Below are positions 631-8,951 of a stretch of 40,458 nt of DNA, one piece after another. The translations under genes were made by a program, and so were the position numbers. The stretch is from a virus, in the IMG/VR virus record IMGVR_UViG_3300030419_002490, positions 1 through 40,458 of that record; one strand, 5' to 3'. The notes beneath the pieces were generated by a model. It searched no databases. It saw nothing but the letters and a program-made list of their open reading frames with translations, and was not told the DNA's origin. Positions within the stretch are counted from its first letter, which is position 1; every line of letters begins with the position of its first letter.

Positions 631-1998
631 TCACCTTCCTGATTTCTTTTTAAATTTATTATATTTCTCTTTGAGTGCCCTCATTTGGTCCTCATCACTC
701 TTTTGAGCATGGTCCATCATTGCTGCATCTCTCTTCATTACTTCGATCTTCACATTGGATGTATCCATAAATAGTGGAAAGATTATTCCGTCCTCTCCAT
801 TTCTATTTTTTGCTACAAACATCCTGCCTGTATTGTTCTGCTTGTCTGTGTGGGTTCTAGAAATAGTGCAAATAAAATCAGCCACGAAGCACTTGTTAAA
901 TGCCTCTGAGATTGCCTCCATTGTAATTACTTCTGCGTTCACGCCTGACCTGTTCGTTTGAGATGCTGTCCATATCGGACACTCGAACTCTTGGGCAATT
1001 CCTCGGAGTTCCTCATATATAGATTCGAGTTCTATTCTTTTCTCTTTGTGCATTGTCTTTGGACGTAACAAATCTGCGTAGTCTACGATAATCATATCGA
1101 TTTTTTGTCCACGATTTTTTAATTTTTCTAGGTGTGCCCTTATGTTATTTGTCGATGCTGACTTTGTTGGATATTCTTTTACAGTCAAAGAACCATCAAT
1201 ATCTTTTACCTTTTCATAAATCTCTTCCTTAAGTTCCATTAAGTCTGTGAGTGGGAATTTGGTGATACAACTATCGTATCTACTAGCCACCACCGTGTCT
1301 TGCAATTCAAGAGTATAGTGGATAACAGACTTGCCCATTTTGACTGCCTCTGCTCCAAGATGAACGAGAGCCATAGACTTACCAGCACCAGTTGGTGCAA
1401 TCACAACACCCAACTCGCCCTTACCTAAGCCGCCTTTGCAAATCTTATCTACCTCATCCCAGCCTGTGGTGACTGCATTTCTGGCAACAAACTCGAATCT
1501 CTTTTCAAAGTCAAGAATATAATCATGACCAAAATTATTCTCGGCACCCAGCGTTAACGACTTCGTTACCATCTCTTGTATCTCATCAAACGAAGACTTC
1601 TCCAAAAGGGAAAGAGACTTCATCACAGCTTCTTTGTATTTCTGCTTTCTACAAAAATCAAGTGCTGTGTCTTTAATAAAACCAGCATCCTCCATTGACG
1701 TATTAGAAGAAGTTAAAACTCGCTTGTAGTAATCTCTGACCTGCTTTTGCATAAGGGGACTTTCACTTGCAAGGTCCGTCCTAAGCATTGTGGTCATCGA
1801 GCTTATGTTTGGATGGCTATCATATTTTTCCTTATATAGCAAAATCTTCTTTACGAAGAGTTGCAGATAACTAAGTTCAAAAAAGTTTATATCAAGGACC
1901 TCTGATATCTGGCTACAAAAAGCCCTGTCCTCGAACATTAACTTTGATAACTTCTCTTGAAAGTCTTTGCCATGGCGTGAGAAGCTCGCTTTTTCCAT
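631..1998 (-). CDS. DnaB-like replicative DNA helicase (gp41-type)
   Basis: This 455-aa protein is the likely hexameric 5'-3' helicase of the phage replisome. An N-terminal helical region (about 1-150) precedes a RecA-fold motor. The Walker A motif APTGAGKS is at 201-208, YTLEL follows at 228-232, the Walker B-type strand MIIVDYADLL lies near 303-312, and a sensor segment WTASQTNRSG lies near 345. The order and spacing match DnaB/T4 gp41 helicases. The basic C-terminal tail (KEKYNKFKKKSGR) could bind DNA or a primase; no primase gene is in the window. The ATG at 1998 overlaps the stop of the upstream 5'-3' exonuclease gene (TAATG) and has an AAGGA SD, indicating translational coupling within a replication operon. 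Confidence 0.88.
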   Translation of the reverse strand: MEKASFSRHGKDFQEKLSKLMFEDRAFCSQISEVLDINFFELSYLQLFVKKILLYKEKYDSHPNISSMTTMLRTDLASESPLMQKQVRDYYKRVLTSSNTSMEDAGFIKDTALDFCRKQKYKEAVMKSLSLLEKSSFDEIQEMVTKSLTLGAENNFGHDYILDFEKRFEFVARNAVTTGWDEVDKICKGGLGKGELGVVIAPTGAGKSMALVHLGAEAVKMGKSVIHYTLELQDTVVASRYDSCITKFPLTDLMELKEEIYEKVKDIDGSLTVKEYPTKSASTNNIRAHLEKLKNRGQKIDMIIVDYADLLRPKTMHKEKRIELESIYEELRGIAQEFECPIWTASQTNRSGVNAEVITMEAISEAFNKCFVADFICTISRTHTDKQNNTGRMFVAKNRNGEDGIIFPLFMDTSNVKIEVMKRDAAMMDHAQKSDEDQMRALKEKYNKFKKKSGR

Positions 1999-2969
1999 TA
2001 TTGTCCTTTTGATTCAATAATAATTTTCTTAAAATGCACGAATAAATCGTTCCAATCATAAACCCCAAAGCCATCTTCGAGCATCATCGTTTTGGCTTTT
2101 GTCTTATTAAAGGTGGGTTCAAATTCAAGAACACAATCTTTAATACTTTGTCTCGCTTGTGGAGACATCGATGGTGTATATAATTGCATCAATTTGTAGT
2201 TTTGTTCAATCAAATCTTGTTTCTCGACAACATTTGAATAGGCTTTTAGCTTGCTATCGACTGACGCAGCGTATTCAACAACATCTGCAATAGTGTAATC
2301 TTTATCCTCACTCATAAATGGAAATCTCTTGGATACAGTCGGAAGCCCGACACCACCTACACCGGGGAGATTATCTGACTTATCGCCAGCCATAGCACGA
2401 GCCAGAGCAAAGTTATTTGGATGAATTGAGTATTTTTCTACTATCCTCTTCTCGTTCAAGATTTCTTTCTGAACTGGTCTGTATAATACAGTATTCCCTG
2501 AGCAAAGCTGGATAAAGTCTTTGTCGGAACTGACGATTACCTTTTGCCAGTCTTCGATGTTTTTCATATTAGCGACAAAGGCAATAATATCGTCAGCCTC
2601 CAAGTGGTCGACCATAAGCTGGCAGACTGGTAGCTGGTTTAGATACTCGAACAATCTGGTCTGTTGCCATATCTTATTTTCAAGTTCTTCGTTTTCGGTG
2701 AGATTGCGAATACCACGATTTAGTCGGATTGGCTTACGACCTTCCTTGTATCCACCAAACGTAGATTTGCGTCGACTTGAACCTCCGTCCCAAGCAACAA
2801 CAATATGATCTGGTTTGATTTCTCTTGTTAGTTTTTGAAGTATTTTTAAGAAGCCTTTCACGCCGCCGATAGGTTGTCCGTTGGCTGAAAGGCTGGGGTC
2901 TACAATATAAGCTCTGAAATACATATTTAGAGCGTCAACAATCATGATGCGTTTATTATTCATAAACAC
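1998..2969 (-). CDS. 5'-3' exonuclease / flap endonuclease (FEN, PolA N-terminal-domain type)
   Basis: This is a 323-aa metal-dependent 5' nuclease, functionally like T4 RNase H or the detached 5' nuclease domain of Pol I, expected to remove RNA primers. Visible are an N-terminal acidic site in IMIVDALNMYFRAY, VAWDGG near residue 60, a conserved LEADDIIAF, VSSDKDFIQL, and the H3TH DNA-binding segment GDKSDNLPGVGGVG. It is encoded separately from the family A polymerase at 6346-7539. The first possible start is GTG at 2969; an ATG two codons later (2963) is equally possible because no strong SD distinguishes them. It begins just after the 69-aa gene and overlaps the helicase start. Confidence 0.9.
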   Translation of the reverse strand: MFMNNKRIMIVDALNMYFRAYIVDPSLSANGQPIGGVKGFLKILQKLTREIKPDHIVVAWDGGSSRRKSTFGGYKEGRKPIRLNRGIRNLTENEELENKIWQQTRLFEYLNQLPVCQLMVDHLEADDIIAFVANMKNIEDWQKVIVSSDKDFIQLCSGNTVLYRPVQKEILNEKRIVEKYSIHPNNFALARAMAGDKSDNLPGVGGVGLPTVSKRFPFMSEDKDYTIADVVEYAASVDSKLKAYSNVVEKQDLIEQNYKLMQLYTPSMSPQARQSIKDCVLEFEPTFNKTKAKTMMLEDGFGVYDWNDLFVHFKKIIIESKGQ

Positions 2970-3240: not shown

Positions 3241-3483
3241 TTAGTGATGGTGATGGAAGCGCTTTCTGTAACGTTTTTTATAGCGTTTCTTATAGTATTT
3301 TTTCTTATAAATCTTGTGTTTATGATAATGCTTATGATAATAAGTTTTATAAACAACTTTATACGGGGCTGGGACTACAACGTAGTATTCCTCGTATTCA
3401 TAGTGGGGGTAATGAACGGTGTGTCCAAAAGCACAACCAGAGAACAAAACAAAAAATAAACTAAGTGCTACAATCTTTTTCAT
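3241..3483 (-). CDS. Putative small lipoprotein with His/Tyr/Lys/Arg-rich mature part
   Basis: An 80-aa protein. I chose the ATG at 3483 because GGAGG lies just upstream; the longer frame to 3516 has no such support. Residues 1-16 form a signal peptide (MKK plus a hydrophobic core), ending in LFSGC, a near-consensus lipobox with Cys17 (Phe rather than Leu/Val/Ile at -3). The mature part is extraordinary: about 15 Tyr, 11 His and many Lys/Arg, ending in four His. It probably sits in the cell envelope. A role in superinfection exclusion, metal binding or lysis (outer spanin) is conceivable, but no partner inner spanin is adjacent. Its start lies inside an 18-bp inverted repeat. Function unknown. 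Confidence 0.72.
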   Translation of the reverse strand: MKKIVALSLFFVLFSGCAFGHTVHYPHYEYEEYYVVVPAPYKVVYKTYYHKHYHKHKIYKKKYYKKRYKKRYRKRFHHHH

Positions 3484-3527
3484 AACGAAACCTCCATTAC
3501 TTATTAGACGTAGCACTTAGTTTATTT
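3454..3527 (-). promoter_or_regulatory. 18-bp inverted repeat enclosing the RBS and start of the lipoprotein gene
   Basis: Arms 3454-3471 and 3510-3527 are perfect reverse complements over 18 bp, with a 38-nt loop. On the minus strand the first arm begins at the uvsX stop codon. The loop carries the GGAGG SD and the ATG at 3483, and the second arm covers about codons 5-10 of the lipoprotein and runs into a T-rich stretch. In the mRNA this would be a long AU-rich hairpin displaying the SD/AUG in its loop. It could be a translational control element, an RNase-protective structure or a weak terminator between uvsX and downstream genes. Confidence 0.7.
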
Positions 3528-4638
3528 ATTCACCTTTTTCTTCATAAAAGTCTTCGGCGTTGCCTTCACGATTATCAAACTTCATAACGACCTCTTCATC
3601 CATAATTTGAAGAACACGCTTTTTGAATTTGATATCTTCAAGCTTCTGGGACCATTTAGAGGCTTGGAACTTTTCAGACGTGCCATCTTCAAACATCAGT
3701 TCAAACCAAGCACCAGCCTGTTTAATTTTATCTGAGCCTTTGACAGCCTCGAACCAACTTTCCTCGTCTTGAACTCCAATGTCTTCGGTTCCCCAAAGAA
3801 TCTTGAAGTTGCATTGGCGACCTTGTGTCCCAAACCTGCTTTTCTCTAATTTTACCTTGACCTCAGAACCAATCCTAAATCCTTTGTCGTCCTGAACAAA
3901 AGAAGCCTTGGCTTTGCGACCAGTTAACCAAATACGAAGTGAATAAGCGTAAATCATGGCTTTTCCACCGGGAGTCATATATGGAGTGGTCAAAGCCTCA
4001 GAGGGGCTTCGGGTAATATTGGTTTTCAACTGGTTAAGGACCAAAAAGGTTGATTGGCTGTTTGCAATCGGCACAGTCAGCTTTGACATACCCTTTGCTA
4101 AAATACGTGCTTTTACTGCCATGGAAGAAAGGGGGTTAAAGTCTCCTTCCACGTCGGAAATAGCAGGTGTAAGAGCAAGAGAATCCCAAATGAAAAGCAT
4201 ACGATTTTCATTATTAGCCAAAAGGTCTTCGATAGTTTCGAGTACAAACTCAACAGACTGAGCTTGAACATATAAAATAGTATTGACATCGCATCCCGCC
4301 CTTTCCAAGAACGCAGGATCAATAGCAGACTCGGAATCGAAATAGACAACATCGATTCCTTTTTTCTGTGCATTTGCTGCGACTTGTGCCGCCAAGAATG
4401 ACTTACCCGTTGCTTCAAGACCTGCGATCTCCGTTACTTTGCCGACTGGTATACCTGCCAGCTTTCCTTTACAAATAATAGAATCAAGCCAGCGAGATCC
4501 AGTGGGGATCCAATCATTGACCTCCGTTGGATTATCCTCATTTAAGTTATGAGCGATGTCGGCACCAGCTTTTTTGTTAATCATCTTTCTCATTTCTTCA
4601 ATGGAAAGACGACCTGTCTTCACTTTTTTCAAAGCCAT
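3526..4638 (-). CDS. uvsX: UvsX/RecA-like recombinase
   Basis: This 370-aa ATP-dependent strand-exchange protein acts in recombination-dependent replication and repair with the gp32 SSB next door. The Walker A motif GLEATGKS is at 73-80 of the chosen protein; VVYFDSESA and LFIWDSLAL (Walker B) follow, and a SEALTTPYMTPGGKA segment fits the DNA-binding L2 loop region. The frame stays open to 4860, but the extra N-terminal residues lie across the terminator and the end of gene 32. The ATG at 4638 has AGGAG six bases upstream and the family-typical start. The C-terminus is acidic (EDFYEEKGE). Confidence 0.9.
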   Translation of the reverse strand: MALKKVKTGRLSIEEMRKMINKKAGADIAHNLNEDNPTEVNDWIPTGSRWLDSIICKGKLAGIPVGKVTEIAGLEATGKSFLAAQVAANAQKKGIDVVYFDSESAIDPAFLERAGCDVNTILYVQAQSVEFVLETIEDLLANNENRMLFIWDSLALTPAISDVEGDFNPLSSMAVKARILAKGMSKLTVPIANSQSTFLVLNQLKTNITRSPSEALTTPYMTPGGKAMIYAYSLRIWLTGRKAKASFVQDDKGFRIGSEVKVKLEKSRFGTQGRQCNFKILWGTEDIGVQDEESWFEAVKGSDKIKQAGAWFELMFEDGTSEKFQASKWSQKLEDIKFKKRVLQIMDEEVVMKFDNREGNAEDFYEEKGE

Positions 4639-4652
4639 AGTATCTCCTAAAT

Positions 4653-4680
4653 AAAAAAATGGAGGGGGCGAACCCCCTCC
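4653..4680 (-). terminator. Rho-independent terminator after gp32
   Basis: On the minus strand a perfect 8-bp GC stem (GGAGGGGG / CCCCCTCC) with loop TTCG is followed by A and seven T. It sits 13 bases beyond the gp32 stop and just before the uvsX SD. It would let abundant gp32 mRNA be made with only read-through into uvsX. Confidence 0.9.
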
Positions 4681-4693
4681 GTGGCTATGGGGT

Positions 4694-5440
4694 TTAGCCA
4701 AGTAGCTCGTTGAACGCAGAGTCAACGTCATTTCCTTTGCCGCCAGTATATTTGGTGGTTTCGGAAGAGTTCTCTTCTGCATCCTCTTCGCCAGCGAGGA
4801 AAGTGTCCAACATCTCTTGGACCTGAGTTGATGTCTTACGATCAAAGAGAGTATCGACATCAGGAATAGTTTCCAAATAGGTTTGGACTGTTTCCTCAGT
4901 TTCAGCCAACGGGGAGGAACGTCGGCGGGGGGTAAGTGTAGTCTGTGGGAACTGTGCCCCAGCAGGCTTTCCGTAAGTCAGAACAAGGTCTGTTCCTTCT
5001 TCGACATCAGTAATATCGCCATAGTCTGGATTCAGAACAAGGCTCAACAACTCTTGATAAGCCATCTTGCCATAACCCCAGATGCGAACACCTTTGTCTT
5101 CTTCTCCACGCACAACAACAGGCGAGAAGAAACGCTGACGAGCCATAAGAGACTTAGCCATCTTAATGCTGTCTTCTGTTCCGTCATTGAACAATTCTCG
5201 AATAAAGCTATCCAATGGACAGTCCTCTCCGAAGTTCTTCTTTGGGCTTAGAAAGCCGGGGTTGGTTCCAAGATTGTAATGAAACCAAAACTCCTTGAAG
5301 GGATCGCCATCTGGTGTTGGCAGGATGCGGATTGTTTGCTCTCCGTCCTGTGGTCGCCAGAAGATGTCGTTGCGACTCTTGCGGTCTTCTCCCTTTACAG
5401 AAGCCATCTTTGCTTTCATTTTATCCATATCAATTGCCAT
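4694..5440 (-). CDS. 32: Single-stranded DNA-binding protein, gp32-like
   Basis: A 248-aa SSB that coats ssDNA in replication and recombination; T4 gp32 is 301 aa. The N-terminal basic segment (KMKAKMASVKGEDRKSRNDIFWRPQDG) and the core with ILPTPDGDPFKEFWFHYN and KKNFGEDCPLDSF follow the T4-type marine SSB pattern. The C-terminus is an acidic linker ending DVDSAFNELLG, the typical partner-recruiting tail. Only one Cys remains where T4 gp32 has a zinc ligand cluster, so zinc binding is doubtful. The gene has its own sigma70-like promoter upstream and a strong terminator downstream. Confidence 0.88.
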   Translation of the reverse strand: MAIDMDKMKAKMASVKGEDRKSRNDIFWRPQDGEQTIRILPTPDGDPFKEFWFHYNLGTNPGFLSPKKNFGEDCPLDSFIRELFNDGTEDSIKMAKSLMARQRFFSPVVVRGEEDKGVRIWGYGKMAYQELLSLVLNPDYGDITDVEEGTDLVLTYGKPAGAQFPQTTLTPRRRSSPLAETEETVQTYLETIPDVDTLFDRKTSTQVQEMLDTFLAGEEDAEENSSETTKYTGGKGNDVDSAFNELLG

Positions 5441-5530: not shown

Positions 5531-6358
5531 TCAAATGTTTTTTTGTATTTTTGTTGTTCTTGATAGAAAATAGACGTGATTGTCTTCGTAGTTTGTTGAA
5601 TAAATACCAAAGGTTGTGTCGCACTCTTGGTCTATATTTTCACGGATGTTTTTAAGCAGATTTTGGTCAGATTTGAGGTGTTTTTCTGGTATTGCAAAGT
5701 AGTATTTTTTCTCTCTTATTTCTTCCATATTGTAGAAAGAATACTCTTCGCTATTTTTGGGATTGACCGTGCCGATAGTCATAATTCTGGATGGGTCGTG
5801 TAAGTCGCTATAAGTATTGAAAACTGGGTCGGTGTTATCAAAGACGTTTAGCATATGTATTGTGGATACCAGAGTTTCGTTGATTCTTTCATAATACCCA
5901 AAAACTGGTAATCCTCCGAGAACTGTCTCGATAGTTTTATTTTCAACGATAATCAAAGATTTAAATACACCAGAACGTGCATACTCCTGAAAAACGTTAA
6001 AAACGGCATTTTCATTGAGAAGTTCGGTGCCAGAAAGCTCGCTCACATCTGGCTTGATGTAAAGAACATTTATTTCTGCTTTGTCCCTAGCCTGCTGCAA
6101 GACACGAAGTGATGCAGAGCAGATTTTAGAGCCTCCGCAAGTAATAAAAAGAGCTTCTCCGGACAAATGCTTAAAAAAGTATTCTAAATCAGGATTATGG
6201 GCATCATATAGTTCAGGATTCTCATATTTAGGATATACATAGTAATTCATCTCATCACTGTGGCGATGGTCAATCTTATAAACATCGTATTGTGGATATT
6301 TCTCAAATCCACGAGCGATGTTGCAACCTGCTTTTCCAAGTCCAATTATTTTATCCAT
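5531..6358 (-). CDS. Divergent tubulin/FtsZ-superfamily-like protein
   Basis: A 275-aa protein. The N-terminus IIGLGKAGCNIARGF (4-18) resembles the FtsZ beta1-T1 loop-H1. FITCGGSKICS (71-81) sits where FtsZ has the GGGTGTG signature, but the motif is degenerate. INVLYIKPD (96-104), SLIIVEN (134-140; compare the FtsZ IVIPN strand), a helix with YYERINETLVSTIHML (155-170), and NTYSDLHD (181-188) in the place of the T7 NxDxxD loop, followed by RIMTIGT, appear in FtsZ order. A C-terminal alpha/beta region follows. Family knowledge: phage tubulins (PhuZ, TubZ) polymerise and position DNA. Whether this one binds GTP is doubtful. It overlaps the polymerase stop by 13 bases and precedes gp32. A plain Rossmann-like protein is the alternative. 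Confidence 0.6.
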   Translation of the reverse strand: MDKIIGLGKAGCNIARGFEKYPQYDVYKIDHRHSDEMNYYVYPKYENPELYDAHNPDLEYFFKHLSGEALFITCGGSKICSASLRVLQQARDKAEINVLYIKPDVSELSGTELLNENAVFNVFQEYARSGVFKSLIIVENKTIETVLGGLPVFGYYERINETLVSTIHMLNVFDNTDPVFNTYSDLHDPSRIMTIGTVNPKNSEEYSFYNMEEIREKKYYFAIPEKHLKSDQNLLKNIRENIDQECDTTFGIYSTNYEDNHVYFLSRTTKIQKNI

Positions 6359-7539
6359 AGGTCTTTTAATTCTCCAAAGTTCTTTCCAGCTTTTGCACTT
6401 GTCTTAAATACTCCGAAATCATTTTTTGCAAAAGTGTCATATATGTCCTGTATCATATATTGGTCTTCTTCGCTAAAATCCAAAACGATTGAATCATGCA
6501 TTGTAAAGGCAATGGTCGATTTTCTACCATCAAGCAGCTTGTGTATCTTAAGCGCCTGTCTCAATATAATATCATTGGTCGTGCTTTGTAAAATATAATT
6601 CAAAGCGTGAAATTCATCAGACTCAATTTCTCTACCATATGGATTTTTAACCTTTTTTCCGTCCCAATACTTCTCTTTAACCTTCCCCCTATCATAAGCA
6701 CGATTAGAGAGAAAATCATTTGAATTTGGGTTATAAAGCCATGCAAAAACTCTTTTTTTAGCCTCTTCCCTGTCAATAGCCCCACGATAAACAACATTTG
6801 CGTTCCAATCGTGTATATCTTCTTCTGGCTGGTCTTTACCAGATAGGGCGAGGAGCGTTCTAAGTTCTGCTGCGTTATAATCCAATTCAACGAACCAATC
6901 ATTATTTGGTTTTAGTATGGAGCGATAGTTCTTATCGAGGTTAAGAAGTGGGAAGCAGCCTTTCTCAACTGTAAGCCTGCCTGTGATAGAGCCGAATAAA
7001 TTATATTTTACAAAAGGTTGAAGTCTTTTGAGTTTCTTCAAGAAATCTCTAATCCGAAGATTGTATGCTTTTTGTCTCAGTGGTGTGGTATCAATATTAA
7101 GCTTTTGATATTTGATATCAGTTAGCATCTTGGTCGCCTCAACAAGAAAGTCGTAATCAGCAGGTTTTGGGTGATTTTCCAAGATATACTCTGTTATCTC
7201 ATTTTTAGCTTTGCAGTATTCAATCAAGAATTTCTCTGGCACCAGTTCATAAAAACAGTTGTCATTGAGATCAACCTTCGCCTCAATAAAGGAGCGATGA
7301 TATGCTCTGAGCTTGTCAAAAACCTCAGACCACTTGCTTTTCATATGCTCAGGGCAAGCCTCATCAAGTGATTTTCCACCGAAGTATATATGTGCGTATT
7401 CTATATCAGGTAGGTCTTTGAGGAAAGCTGAGTATTTCCAAGTTTTGGTGAGATTTTGAGGAATTTCGTTCCAAAGAAGTTCGCCATCCTTGAAAACAGC
7501 GACACACTCATTTTTTTCATCTAATGTCTGAAAAATCAA
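6346..7539 (-). CDS. Compact family A DNA polymerase (polymerase domain only)
   Basis: A 397-aa replicative or repair polymerase lacking room for a 3'-5' exonuclease domain. Motifs: TGRLT at 186-190, motif A ELDYNAAELR (218-227; catalytic D220), DIH at 241-243, O-helix R257/K261/F265/Y269 with the exact Pol I spacing, NPYGRE (299-304), and motif C MHDSIVLDF (347-355; D349, with HDS in place of the usual HDE). The start is TTG at 7539 with a TAGG SD-like element; there is no in-frame ATG until residue 66. T4-type phages normally use family B gp43, so this is a different replisome. The 5' nuclease is a separate gene at 1998-2969. The stop overlaps the tubulin-like gene. Confidence 0.87.
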   Translation of the reverse strand: MIFQTLDEKNECVAVFKDGELLWNEIPQNLTKTWKYSAFLKDLPDIEYAHIYFGGKSLDEACPEHMKSKWSEVFDKLRAYHRSFIEAKVDLNDNCFYELVPEKFLIEYCKAKNEITEYILENHPKPADYDFLVEATKMLTDIKYQKLNIDTTPLRQKAYNLRIRDFLKKLKRLQPFVKYNLFGSITGRLTVEKGCFPLLNLDKNYRSILKPNNDWFVELDYNAAELRTLLALSGKDQPEEDIHDWNANVVYRGAIDREEAKKRVFAWLYNPNSNDFLSNRAYDRGKVKEKYWDGKKVKNPYGREIESDEFHALNYILQSTTNDIILRQALKIHKLLDGRKSTIAFTMHDSIVLDFSEEDQYMIQDIYDTFAKNDFGVFKTSAKAGKNFGELKDLWIK

Positions 7540-7541
7540 TT

Positions 7542-8951
7542 CTAACCTACTTCTGGTGCTTCTATAATTTTAGACTTTGCCGTTACTTGTGGCTGTCTTG
7601 CTTTGTTAAACGCATCTTTACGAATAACACTAATATTTCCAGAAGTCAAGCTTTTTCCAAACCCTTTGACATAAGAGTTAATATAAATCAGTGCCTGTTC
7701 ATAACTTATATATTTATTAATATTCATGATTTTGCTTTTTTGTTTAAGAAATCTCTCATCATTAAGTTTTAAGCCGATTTCTGCCAATCTTATTCGCAAA
7801 TATTCACACAACCAAAAATCACTTGAATAATCAGAATTTAATTTACCAATTGAATAACTATCTCTAAAACTAACACTGGAAATTACCCTATATTCCTCTG
7901 GATTGCTGACGTTACAGGATTGAACGACAGGGGTAGTTGTGTATTCCCTTCTCCCAACATGATGGTTATAAAGGTTGACAACGATTTCTTTAATCATATT
8001 AATATCTCTGGTGTAAACTTTGTCGTAATAAAAAGGAAATATATCACTGGTGTCCAGTGGCATGCCATCAGACTTAAGCCTAGTTGCTATGTCTTCGCCA
8101 TTAACAGTATACTCTCCACGAATATACTTTAGCATTCTTGGGGAATTCAAATTTGCGACAAATCTCCATGGAGCGTTCCTGTCTATCATAAACCCAAAAT
8201 TCGCTGCACCATCTTTTATAACATCATACTTGTTGGAAGCAAGAAATTCTTGATATTTATCATAATCTCCATTGTGACTTTGAATTGAAATTTCAAAAAT
8301 CATACCACTTATCAATCTTGTGCATTTTCTTGAAATAGCAAAATTACTTCTAGCCAACATAATTCCTTCTGCTAGCATTACATTTGGATAGAAGTCGAAT
8401 AAAAAATATTTCAAAAAATCATGAAAACTTTTGATATTGTGATCTCTTTTTTCCTGCCTTAAGTGTGGTGCCATAAACCCTGTATACAAATCTTCTAGGA
8501 TTTTAGAATGCTCCGAATCTAGATCCACATAAGATCTAACAACATTCATTCCTTCATAAAGGGTGCCTTCTATTTTTATTGATTTTCTATTTCCTCGCTC
8601 ATCAGGTGCAAAATTATCTCTAAGATCGTTAAATGCTCTTGCTGCAAAGTCTACACCAATTCCGGGTGTTTTTTTGTTACCCAAAGTTCTTAATGCACCC
8701 TTTTTTGGAACGACAACATCTCCATCAGCATCAACAATACCATAATCTAAATTTTCAGCAGCACCAAACAAATCAAATGCGTTTGAAGTAGAGCCAAAAA
8801 AACTAAATTCCTGACTTTGACCTTGTTCTAAGCCATCGCCAACAAAAACAGAGCCATAATTTGCCTTTAAAGCTCCAACCCTAGATGTCTTTGCGGCATC
8901 TGCGGCTTTCTTAACCATCAGGTCTGCTGGAAATGCTGGTTTTCTAAACAT
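7542..8951 (-). CDS. Conserved-looking structural protein, unknown
   Basis: A 469-aa protein that I do not recognise. It starts MFRKPAFPADLMVKKAADAAK with a GGGAG SD, has no signal peptide or membrane span, and ends in a flexible QPQVTAKSKIIEAPEVG tail. It follows the 1037-aa hub-like protein by 21 bases and is the last gene of the tail/baseplate block, so a baseplate or tail-associated virion role is likely by position only. It lies two bases from the polymerase start. Confidence 0.6.
   Translation of the reverse strand: MFRKPAFPADLMVKKAADAAKTSRVGALKANYGSVFVGDGLEQGQSQEFSFFGSTSNAFDLFGAAENLDYGIVDADGDVVVPKKGALRTLGNKKTPGIGVDFAARAFNDLRDNFAPDERGNRKSIKIEGTLYEGMNVVRSYVDLDSEHSKILEDLYTGFMAPHLRQEKRDHNIKSFHDFLKYFLFDFYPNVMLAEGIMLARSNFAISRKCTRLISGMIFEISIQSHNGDYDKYQEFLASNKYDVIKDGAANFGFMIDRNAPWRFVANLNSPRMLKYIRGEYTVNGEDIATRLKSDGMPLDTSDIFPFYYDKVYTRDINMIKEIVVNLYNHHVGRREYTTTPVVQSCNVSNPEEYRVISSVSFRDSYSIGKLNSDYSSDFWLCEYLRIRLAEIGLKLNDERFLKQKSKIMNINKYISYEQALIYINSYVKGFGKSLTSGNISVIRKDAFNKARQPQVTAKSKIIEAPEVG

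Follow-up and report, generated by a model that had tools for sequence, protein, structure and literature searches.

A minimal tubulin/FtsZ superfamily member in the replication operon of a large uncultured phage clade

Described tubulins and the fold of the short phage protein

The known phage tubulins, PhuZ and TubZ, form filaments that are driven by GTP and transport virions, nuclei or plasmids. The T7 loop and helix H8 provide the longitudinal contact in known tubulins, and in FtsZ the side opposite the nucleotide is the one in contact with the neighbouring subunit. Filaments of PhuZ and TubZ are GTP-dependent, and the dynamics of PhuZ require the catalytic T7 loop (PMC7950403, PMC3678025). 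Two motifs, GGGTG[TS]G and NxDxx[DE], are highly conserved in FtsZ for GTP binding and GTP hydrolysis (PMC12583498).

The window, that is the whole stretch of DNA analysed here, is a virus record of 40,458 bases and contains a gene for a tubulin-fold protein of 275 aa (5531..6358, minus strand), hereafter the short phage tubulin, recognised from its ORF, AlphaFold2 and Foldseek results and dN/dS. The ORF starts with an ATG at 6358 and stops at 5531, and its 5′ codons share 13 nt with the 3′ end of the polymerase ORF upstream. The dN/dS values against the two nearest relatives were 0.041 (L001) and 0.030 (L002); the short tubulin is a genuine protein-coding gene under strong purifying selection. 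Scanning IMG/VR with the single sequence gave 27 relatives (36-98% identity), and profile-guided scans brought the family to at least 597 confirmed IMG/VR matches, duplicates included. Zero relatives were found by tblastn among the 50,697 annotated phage records of INPHARED, a one-pattern scan of bacterial and archaeal genomes revealed no cellular homologue, and a family of short phage tubulins was not found described in the open-access literature. Single short-tubulin sequences gave no useful match in Pfam, PHROGs, NCBIfam or a phmmer search of the PDB, and none reached the cut-off of Pfam PF00091. As single-sequence searches were uninformative, identification is based on profiles and folds.

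The AlphaFold2 model of the window protein, for which an alignment of 78 relatives was the input, had a pLDDT of 93.6 and a pTM of 0.91, and that of a second member (L252, ~33% identical to the window protein) had a pLDDT of 93.2. Both models show the two-domain tubulin fold with the core helix H7. When the window protein was compared with the PDB using Foldseek, the top 50 matches were exclusively FtsZ, TubZ and tubulin (best E 2e-12, query-length TM-score ~0.64-0.74), and the same three occupied the entire top 50 for L252. Among predicted viral proteins, the best fold matches included an FtsZ-like phage GTPase, a phage 'cell division protein', tubulin and PhuZ. The original prediction had described a divergent tubulin/FtsZ-like protein and proposed structure prediction with a fold search; run on two members, these gave two confident models with a tubulin fold and with FtsZ, TubZ and tubulin as the top PDB matches, and no other Rossmann family, the alternative raised at the time, outmatches the tubulin superfamily.

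A link to FtsZ was also found at the level of profiles. The short family, compared with 12 cellular FtsZ using hhalign, scored 43.7 over 157 columns from T1 to H7, with a P of 2.6e-5 that is the value for one single comparison. The maximum score from 60 column-shuffled profiles was 20.6 and a reversed profile scored 13.1, while six other replication-operon families, used as non-tubulin controls, scored at most 21.0 against FtsZ and at most 24.2 against the short family. The real score being far above all of these, the FtsZ-like order of the landmarks is not coincidental, and chance resemblance to FtsZ is ruled out by the controls together with the fold searches. An FtsZ match in the PDB obtained from a 17-member profile (E 1.9) disappeared with 78 members and was discarded. 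Taken together, the two confident models, the all-tubulin top 50 matches and the profile link to FtsZ make the predicted tubulin fold of the short family secure.

Conserved and missing elements of the tubulin fold

The short protein shares with bacterial and archaeal FtsZ the N-terminal nucleotide domain, H7, the C-terminal sheet, the T1 glycine loop, and the T6 and H7 asparagines. It differs in being short (~275 aa), in its place within a replication operon and in having no GGGTG[TS]G, NxDxx[DE], H8 or H9; identity to FtsZ in fold alignments of the first model is ~9-16%. In the alignment to FtsZ, GLGKAGCN corresponds to T1, CGGSKICS to T4 (GGGTGTG), IIVEN to T6 and residues 155-174 to H7. Thus the landmarks listed in the original prediction are all present and aligned in FtsZ order, with one correction: NTYSDLHD lies at the T7 position but does not form a T7 loop, none of its positions being strongly conserved across the family, the catalytic NxDxx[DE] being absent and no H8 following it. 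RIMTIGT, which comes next, is strand S7.

The T1-like loop, G6-L-G-K-A-G-C-N13 (6320..6343, minus strand), was delimited by conservation and by alignment to FtsZ T1. Its G8 is present in 78/78 members, G6, L7 and G11 in 77/78, C12 in 76/78 and A10 in 70/78. The loop at the T4 position, C74-GGSKICSA82 (6113..6139, minus strand), identified from the FtsZ alignment, conservation and a motif count, is two residues shorter than the FtsZ GGGTGTG and carries Ser or Thr at residue 80 in 76 of the 78 members. GGGTG[TS]G itself was found in 0/135 distinct members as against 11/12 cellular FtsZ controls. P103 in T5 is kept in at least 90% of the 78 members. T6 and the start of H6, IVEN140 (5939..5950, minus strand), align with the FtsZ IPN, and the core helix H7, placed from the models and conservation at residues 155-174 (5837..5896, minus strand), contains N160, H168, M169 and N171. 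The two guanine-binding positions, N140 in T6 and N160 in H7, are each conserved in 76/78 members, and H168 in 74/78; the T6 and H7 asparagine positions are those at which FtsZ and tubulin touch guanine. Nucleotide binding itself may have been lost or altered, given the changes in T3 and T4.

The region after H7 is where the family departs most from the defining motifs of FtsZ. Residues 175-190 (5789..5836, minus strand), recognised from the models, conservation and a motif count, stand in place of the T7 loop and helix H8 and contain neither a helix nor a conserved acidic triad. NxDxx[DE] was found within the T7 region of 1/135 members, and both AlphaFold2 models are missing H8 (between H7 and S7) as well as H9 (after S7). 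N171 and R191 lie exactly 20 residues apart in 78/78 members, which marks the replacement segment as a fixed design rather than the product of random decay. It is succeeded by the start of strand S7, R191-I-M-T194-I-G196 (5771..5788, minus strand), in which T194 is conserved in 78/78 members and R191 in 74/78. A family signature, Q124-E-Y-A-R-S129, stands out by its conservation at the end of helix H4 (5972..5989, minus strand). Q124, R128 and S129 are invariant (78/78), and the new motif Q[EQH][YF][AT]RS was present in 134/135 short members and 0/12 cellular FtsZ. By standard tubulin topology Q124, R128, S129, H168, N171, R191 and T194 would all face away from the nucleotide. The GTPase-activating T7 loop, H8 and H9 have been lost family-wide, with the residues at the guanine positions retained.

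Similarity to PhuZ and TubZ lies in a tubulin fold encoded by a mobile element, TubZ being found among the PDB matches and PhuZ among the viral ones. However, the short family is without a T7 loop, lies beside a polymerase and a single-stranded DNA-binding protein (SSB), and has no evident partition system. Going by the motifs that define each of them, the short protein is not an FtsZ, a TubZ or a PhuZ.

A second, 'long' family of phage FtsZ-like proteins was also found (~341-373 aa, FtsZ match E 3e-10; for example L100:988-2028 and L099:1027-2121, both on the minus strand, and L108-L155). GGGTGS and a DxxD-type T7 are intact in 33/33 of its members, and an acidic N-terminal tail containing DDFDFV is conserved. 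The long genes occur in a different gene neighbourhood from the short ones, and direct profile comparison of the two families is weak (E 0.1); on these sequence criteria, the long phage tubulin is a family separate from the short one. In PHROGs, three of the 33 match PhuZ and ten match an unnamed family. A search with PF00091 located the long tubulin in G003 and G004, two records in which the short gene is present too. An obligatory pairing of the two was rejected, as 2/17 short-gene records contain a long tubulin and 0/21 other long-gene records contain a short one. By eye, the long tubulin lies just downstream of an apparent virion-protein gene in L118 and adjoins a gp55-like sigma factor gene in L113-L115.

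The replication operon and its phages

The operon, on the minus strand, is transcribed in the order polymerase, tubulin, gp32-like SSB, UvsX, two small ORFs, 5′-3′ exonuclease and DnaB-like helicase. Directly upstream of the tubulin gene is a family A DNA polymerase (6346..7539, PF00476 E 3e-12) and directly downstream a gp32-like SSB (4694..5440, PF08804 E 4e-13). These are accompanied by a UvsX/RecA recombinase ORF (3526..4860, PF00154, phrog_97 E 1e-51), the true start of which is probably internal, the 5′-3′ exonuclease (1998..2969, PF02739 E 7e-31) and the DnaB-like replicative helicase (631..1998, phrog_19 E 1e-72).

Two further proteins encoded on the minus strand in this part of the window were noted. 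Directly upstream of the polymerase is a 469-aa protein (7542-8951), which occurs in most related loci at ~20-40% identity and for which neither Pfam nor PHROGs gave a match of note. A 91-aa His- and Tyr-rich protein (3241-3516) is encoded between uvsX and the exonuclease and has counterparts solely in the two nearest relatives. Its lipoprotein-like signal peptide (MKKIVALSLFFVLFSGC) is followed by HYYHKHYHKH, and the protein ends in HHHH.

The order polA-tubulin-SSB-uvsX is unbroken across 172 loci. Where there was room on the sequence, the SSB was downstream in 165/165 loci and the polymerase upstream and adjacent in 157/159, with a median gap of 9 nt between the tubulin and the polymerase profile. 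These loci were picked via the tubulin gene, and a control set was therefore picked via the polymerase alone. Here the tubulin gene adjoins in 75/75 loci with room, a linkage limited to that clade and not extending to all family A phages, since the polymerases chosen were those closest to one reference. Median identity is 0.43 for the tubulin and 0.45 for the polymerase (rank correlation 0.58, equal to that of polymerase against SSB), and pairwise divergence of the tubulin follows that of polymerase, SSB and UvsX as closely as the polymerase follows SSB. The unbroken linkage and the divergence in step with the operon genes mark the short tubulin as a core gene of the clade. The replication context first proposed for this gene is thus real and strictly conserved. 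The phage had also been called T4-like. This holds for its virion proteins, the portal (phrog_213), major head protein (phrog_138) and tape measure being of T4 type, but the polymerase is of family A, unlike that of T4, so that the T4 character is confined to the virion.

Judged by portal, capsid and an operon order of polA-x-SSB-recA, the nearest cultured relatives are Flavobacterium phage vB_FspM_immuto and Microcystis phage Mel-JY01. In both, a tubulin homologue was sought in the slot between polA and SSB and none was detectable; unrelated small proteins or an S-AdoMet lyase-like protein are found there instead. In Mel-JY01 the slot (L156:7406-8692) encodes an S-adenosylmethionine lyase-like protein of 428 aa, alongside two small ORFs. 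As these phages share the operon order with other proteins at this point, the tubulin gene has been gained or lost at a fixed slot, and a replication operon of this type can work without a tubulin. The short tubulin, a minimal member of the tubulin/FtsZ superfamily, is a core component of this replication operon in a large uncultured phage clade.

Possible roles of the short tubulin

Operon membership by itself is no proof of a function in replication. Given the fold and the genomic context observed, our preferred reading, to which we give an even chance, is that the short tubulin binds a nucleotide, is GTPase-deficient and serves phage DNA replication as a tubulin-fold scaffold or adaptor. 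The mechanism that we infer is one in which the protein would bind GTP, GDP or a related nucleotide as a structural cofactor, which would not be turned over by the tubulin mechanism, and would not activate hydrolysis in a neighbour. The rebuilt bottom face (Q124, R128, S129, H168, N171, R191 and T194) would then grip a fixed partner, either another copy of the protein, giving a static oligomer or filament, or one of the replication proteins produced alongside. With the operon unbroken, the partner would most likely be the tubulin itself, the polymerase or another replication protein. The short tubulin would in this way organise or anchor the phage replication machinery, rather than act as a dynamic cytoskeleton, and this suggests a cytoskeleton protein rebuilt into a fixed part of the viral DNA-copying machinery. 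A stronger form of the idea, which we put forward tentatively and consider rather less probable than its negation, is that a phage replisome has, as an obligatory subunit or scaffold, a tubulin-fold protein that has lost the GTPase chemistry of tubulin, the fold having been recruited into DNA replication itself. R128 and R191, opposite the nucleotide by topology, would in that case replace the T7 loop and might contact the nucleotide of a partner, or DNA.

Among the alternatives, a longitudinal filament like those of PhuZ and TubZ, positioning replicating DNA or virions, is unlikely but the most probable. The highly conserved residues lie on the nucleotide-pocket side and, by topology, on the opposite side, which fits head-to-tail assembly, and GTP might be turned over by residues outside T7, such as Arg128 or Arg191 in the adjoining subunit. 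Both models, however, lack the T7 loop and H8, the protein has no PhuZ-like C-terminal tail helix, and the neighbours are a polymerase and an SSB, with no tubR- or tubY-like neighbour noticed in a casual look. Since T7-loop mutants of PhuZ still form filaments but lose their dynamics (PMC7950403), loss of T7 alone is no proof of lost assembly, and the loss of H8 is the stronger argument. A non-polymerising protein, as suggested in the original prediction, would fit the missing T7 loop and H8. Somewhat more doubtful is an antagonist of FtsZ, which would join or cap host FtsZ filaments via its nucleotide-binding top face, poison the end and so block division during infection. The FtsZ-like top face (T1, N140, N160) is indeed conserved while the hydrolysis-activating part is gone. 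Moreover, most near-complete genomes with a short tubulin have no second detectable tubulin, which would make host FtsZ the natural partner. To our knowledge, the known FtsZ inhibitors are small unrelated peptides from variable host-takeover regions, whereas this gene is fixed in the replication operon and strongly conserves a novel motif that is absent in FtsZ. Phages are known to encode FtsZ inhibitors, lambda Kil among them (PMC3961180), but antagonism is less likely than a replication scaffold or adaptor.

The fixed neighbourhood could also reflect direct binding to the polymerase by a subunit of the replisome, perhaps one that aids processivity or loading; the tubulin fold would then be no more than a binding platform. 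We think this improbable, a little more so than antagonism. The two genes overlap or nearly overlap, their linkage is universal, and the polymerase is short (397 aa); suggestive too is that the gp45 sliding-clamp profile PF09116 had 0 matches in 11 large tubulin-operon records (G001-G007 and G041-G044; 136-190 kb, one of 96 kb), but this search was run without a phage positive control and could miss divergent clamps, and relatives with the same operon are without the short tubulin. By far the least credible reading is that of another Rossmann-fold protein, such as the remnant of an NAD(P)-binding dehydrogenase, that merely looks like FtsZ. Matches to TrkA_N, 2-Hacid_dh_C and similar Pfam domains were weak and came from one to three members; against them stand full-length fold matches to the tubulin superfamily throughout the top 50 for two members and an FtsZ profile match, with its controls, that covers T1 to H7, and the dehydrogenase-like reading was rejected.

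A widespread group of uncultured phages thus carries a tubulin relative without hydrolysis machinery, locked beside a DNA polymerase and an SSB. If the preferred reading of a scaffold or adaptor is true, the tubulin fold would be shown capable of a role in DNA replication or of acting as a static scaffold, and the family would be a natural example of the use of this fold without a T7 loop. The short tubulin would also be a reliable marker gene for this phage clade.
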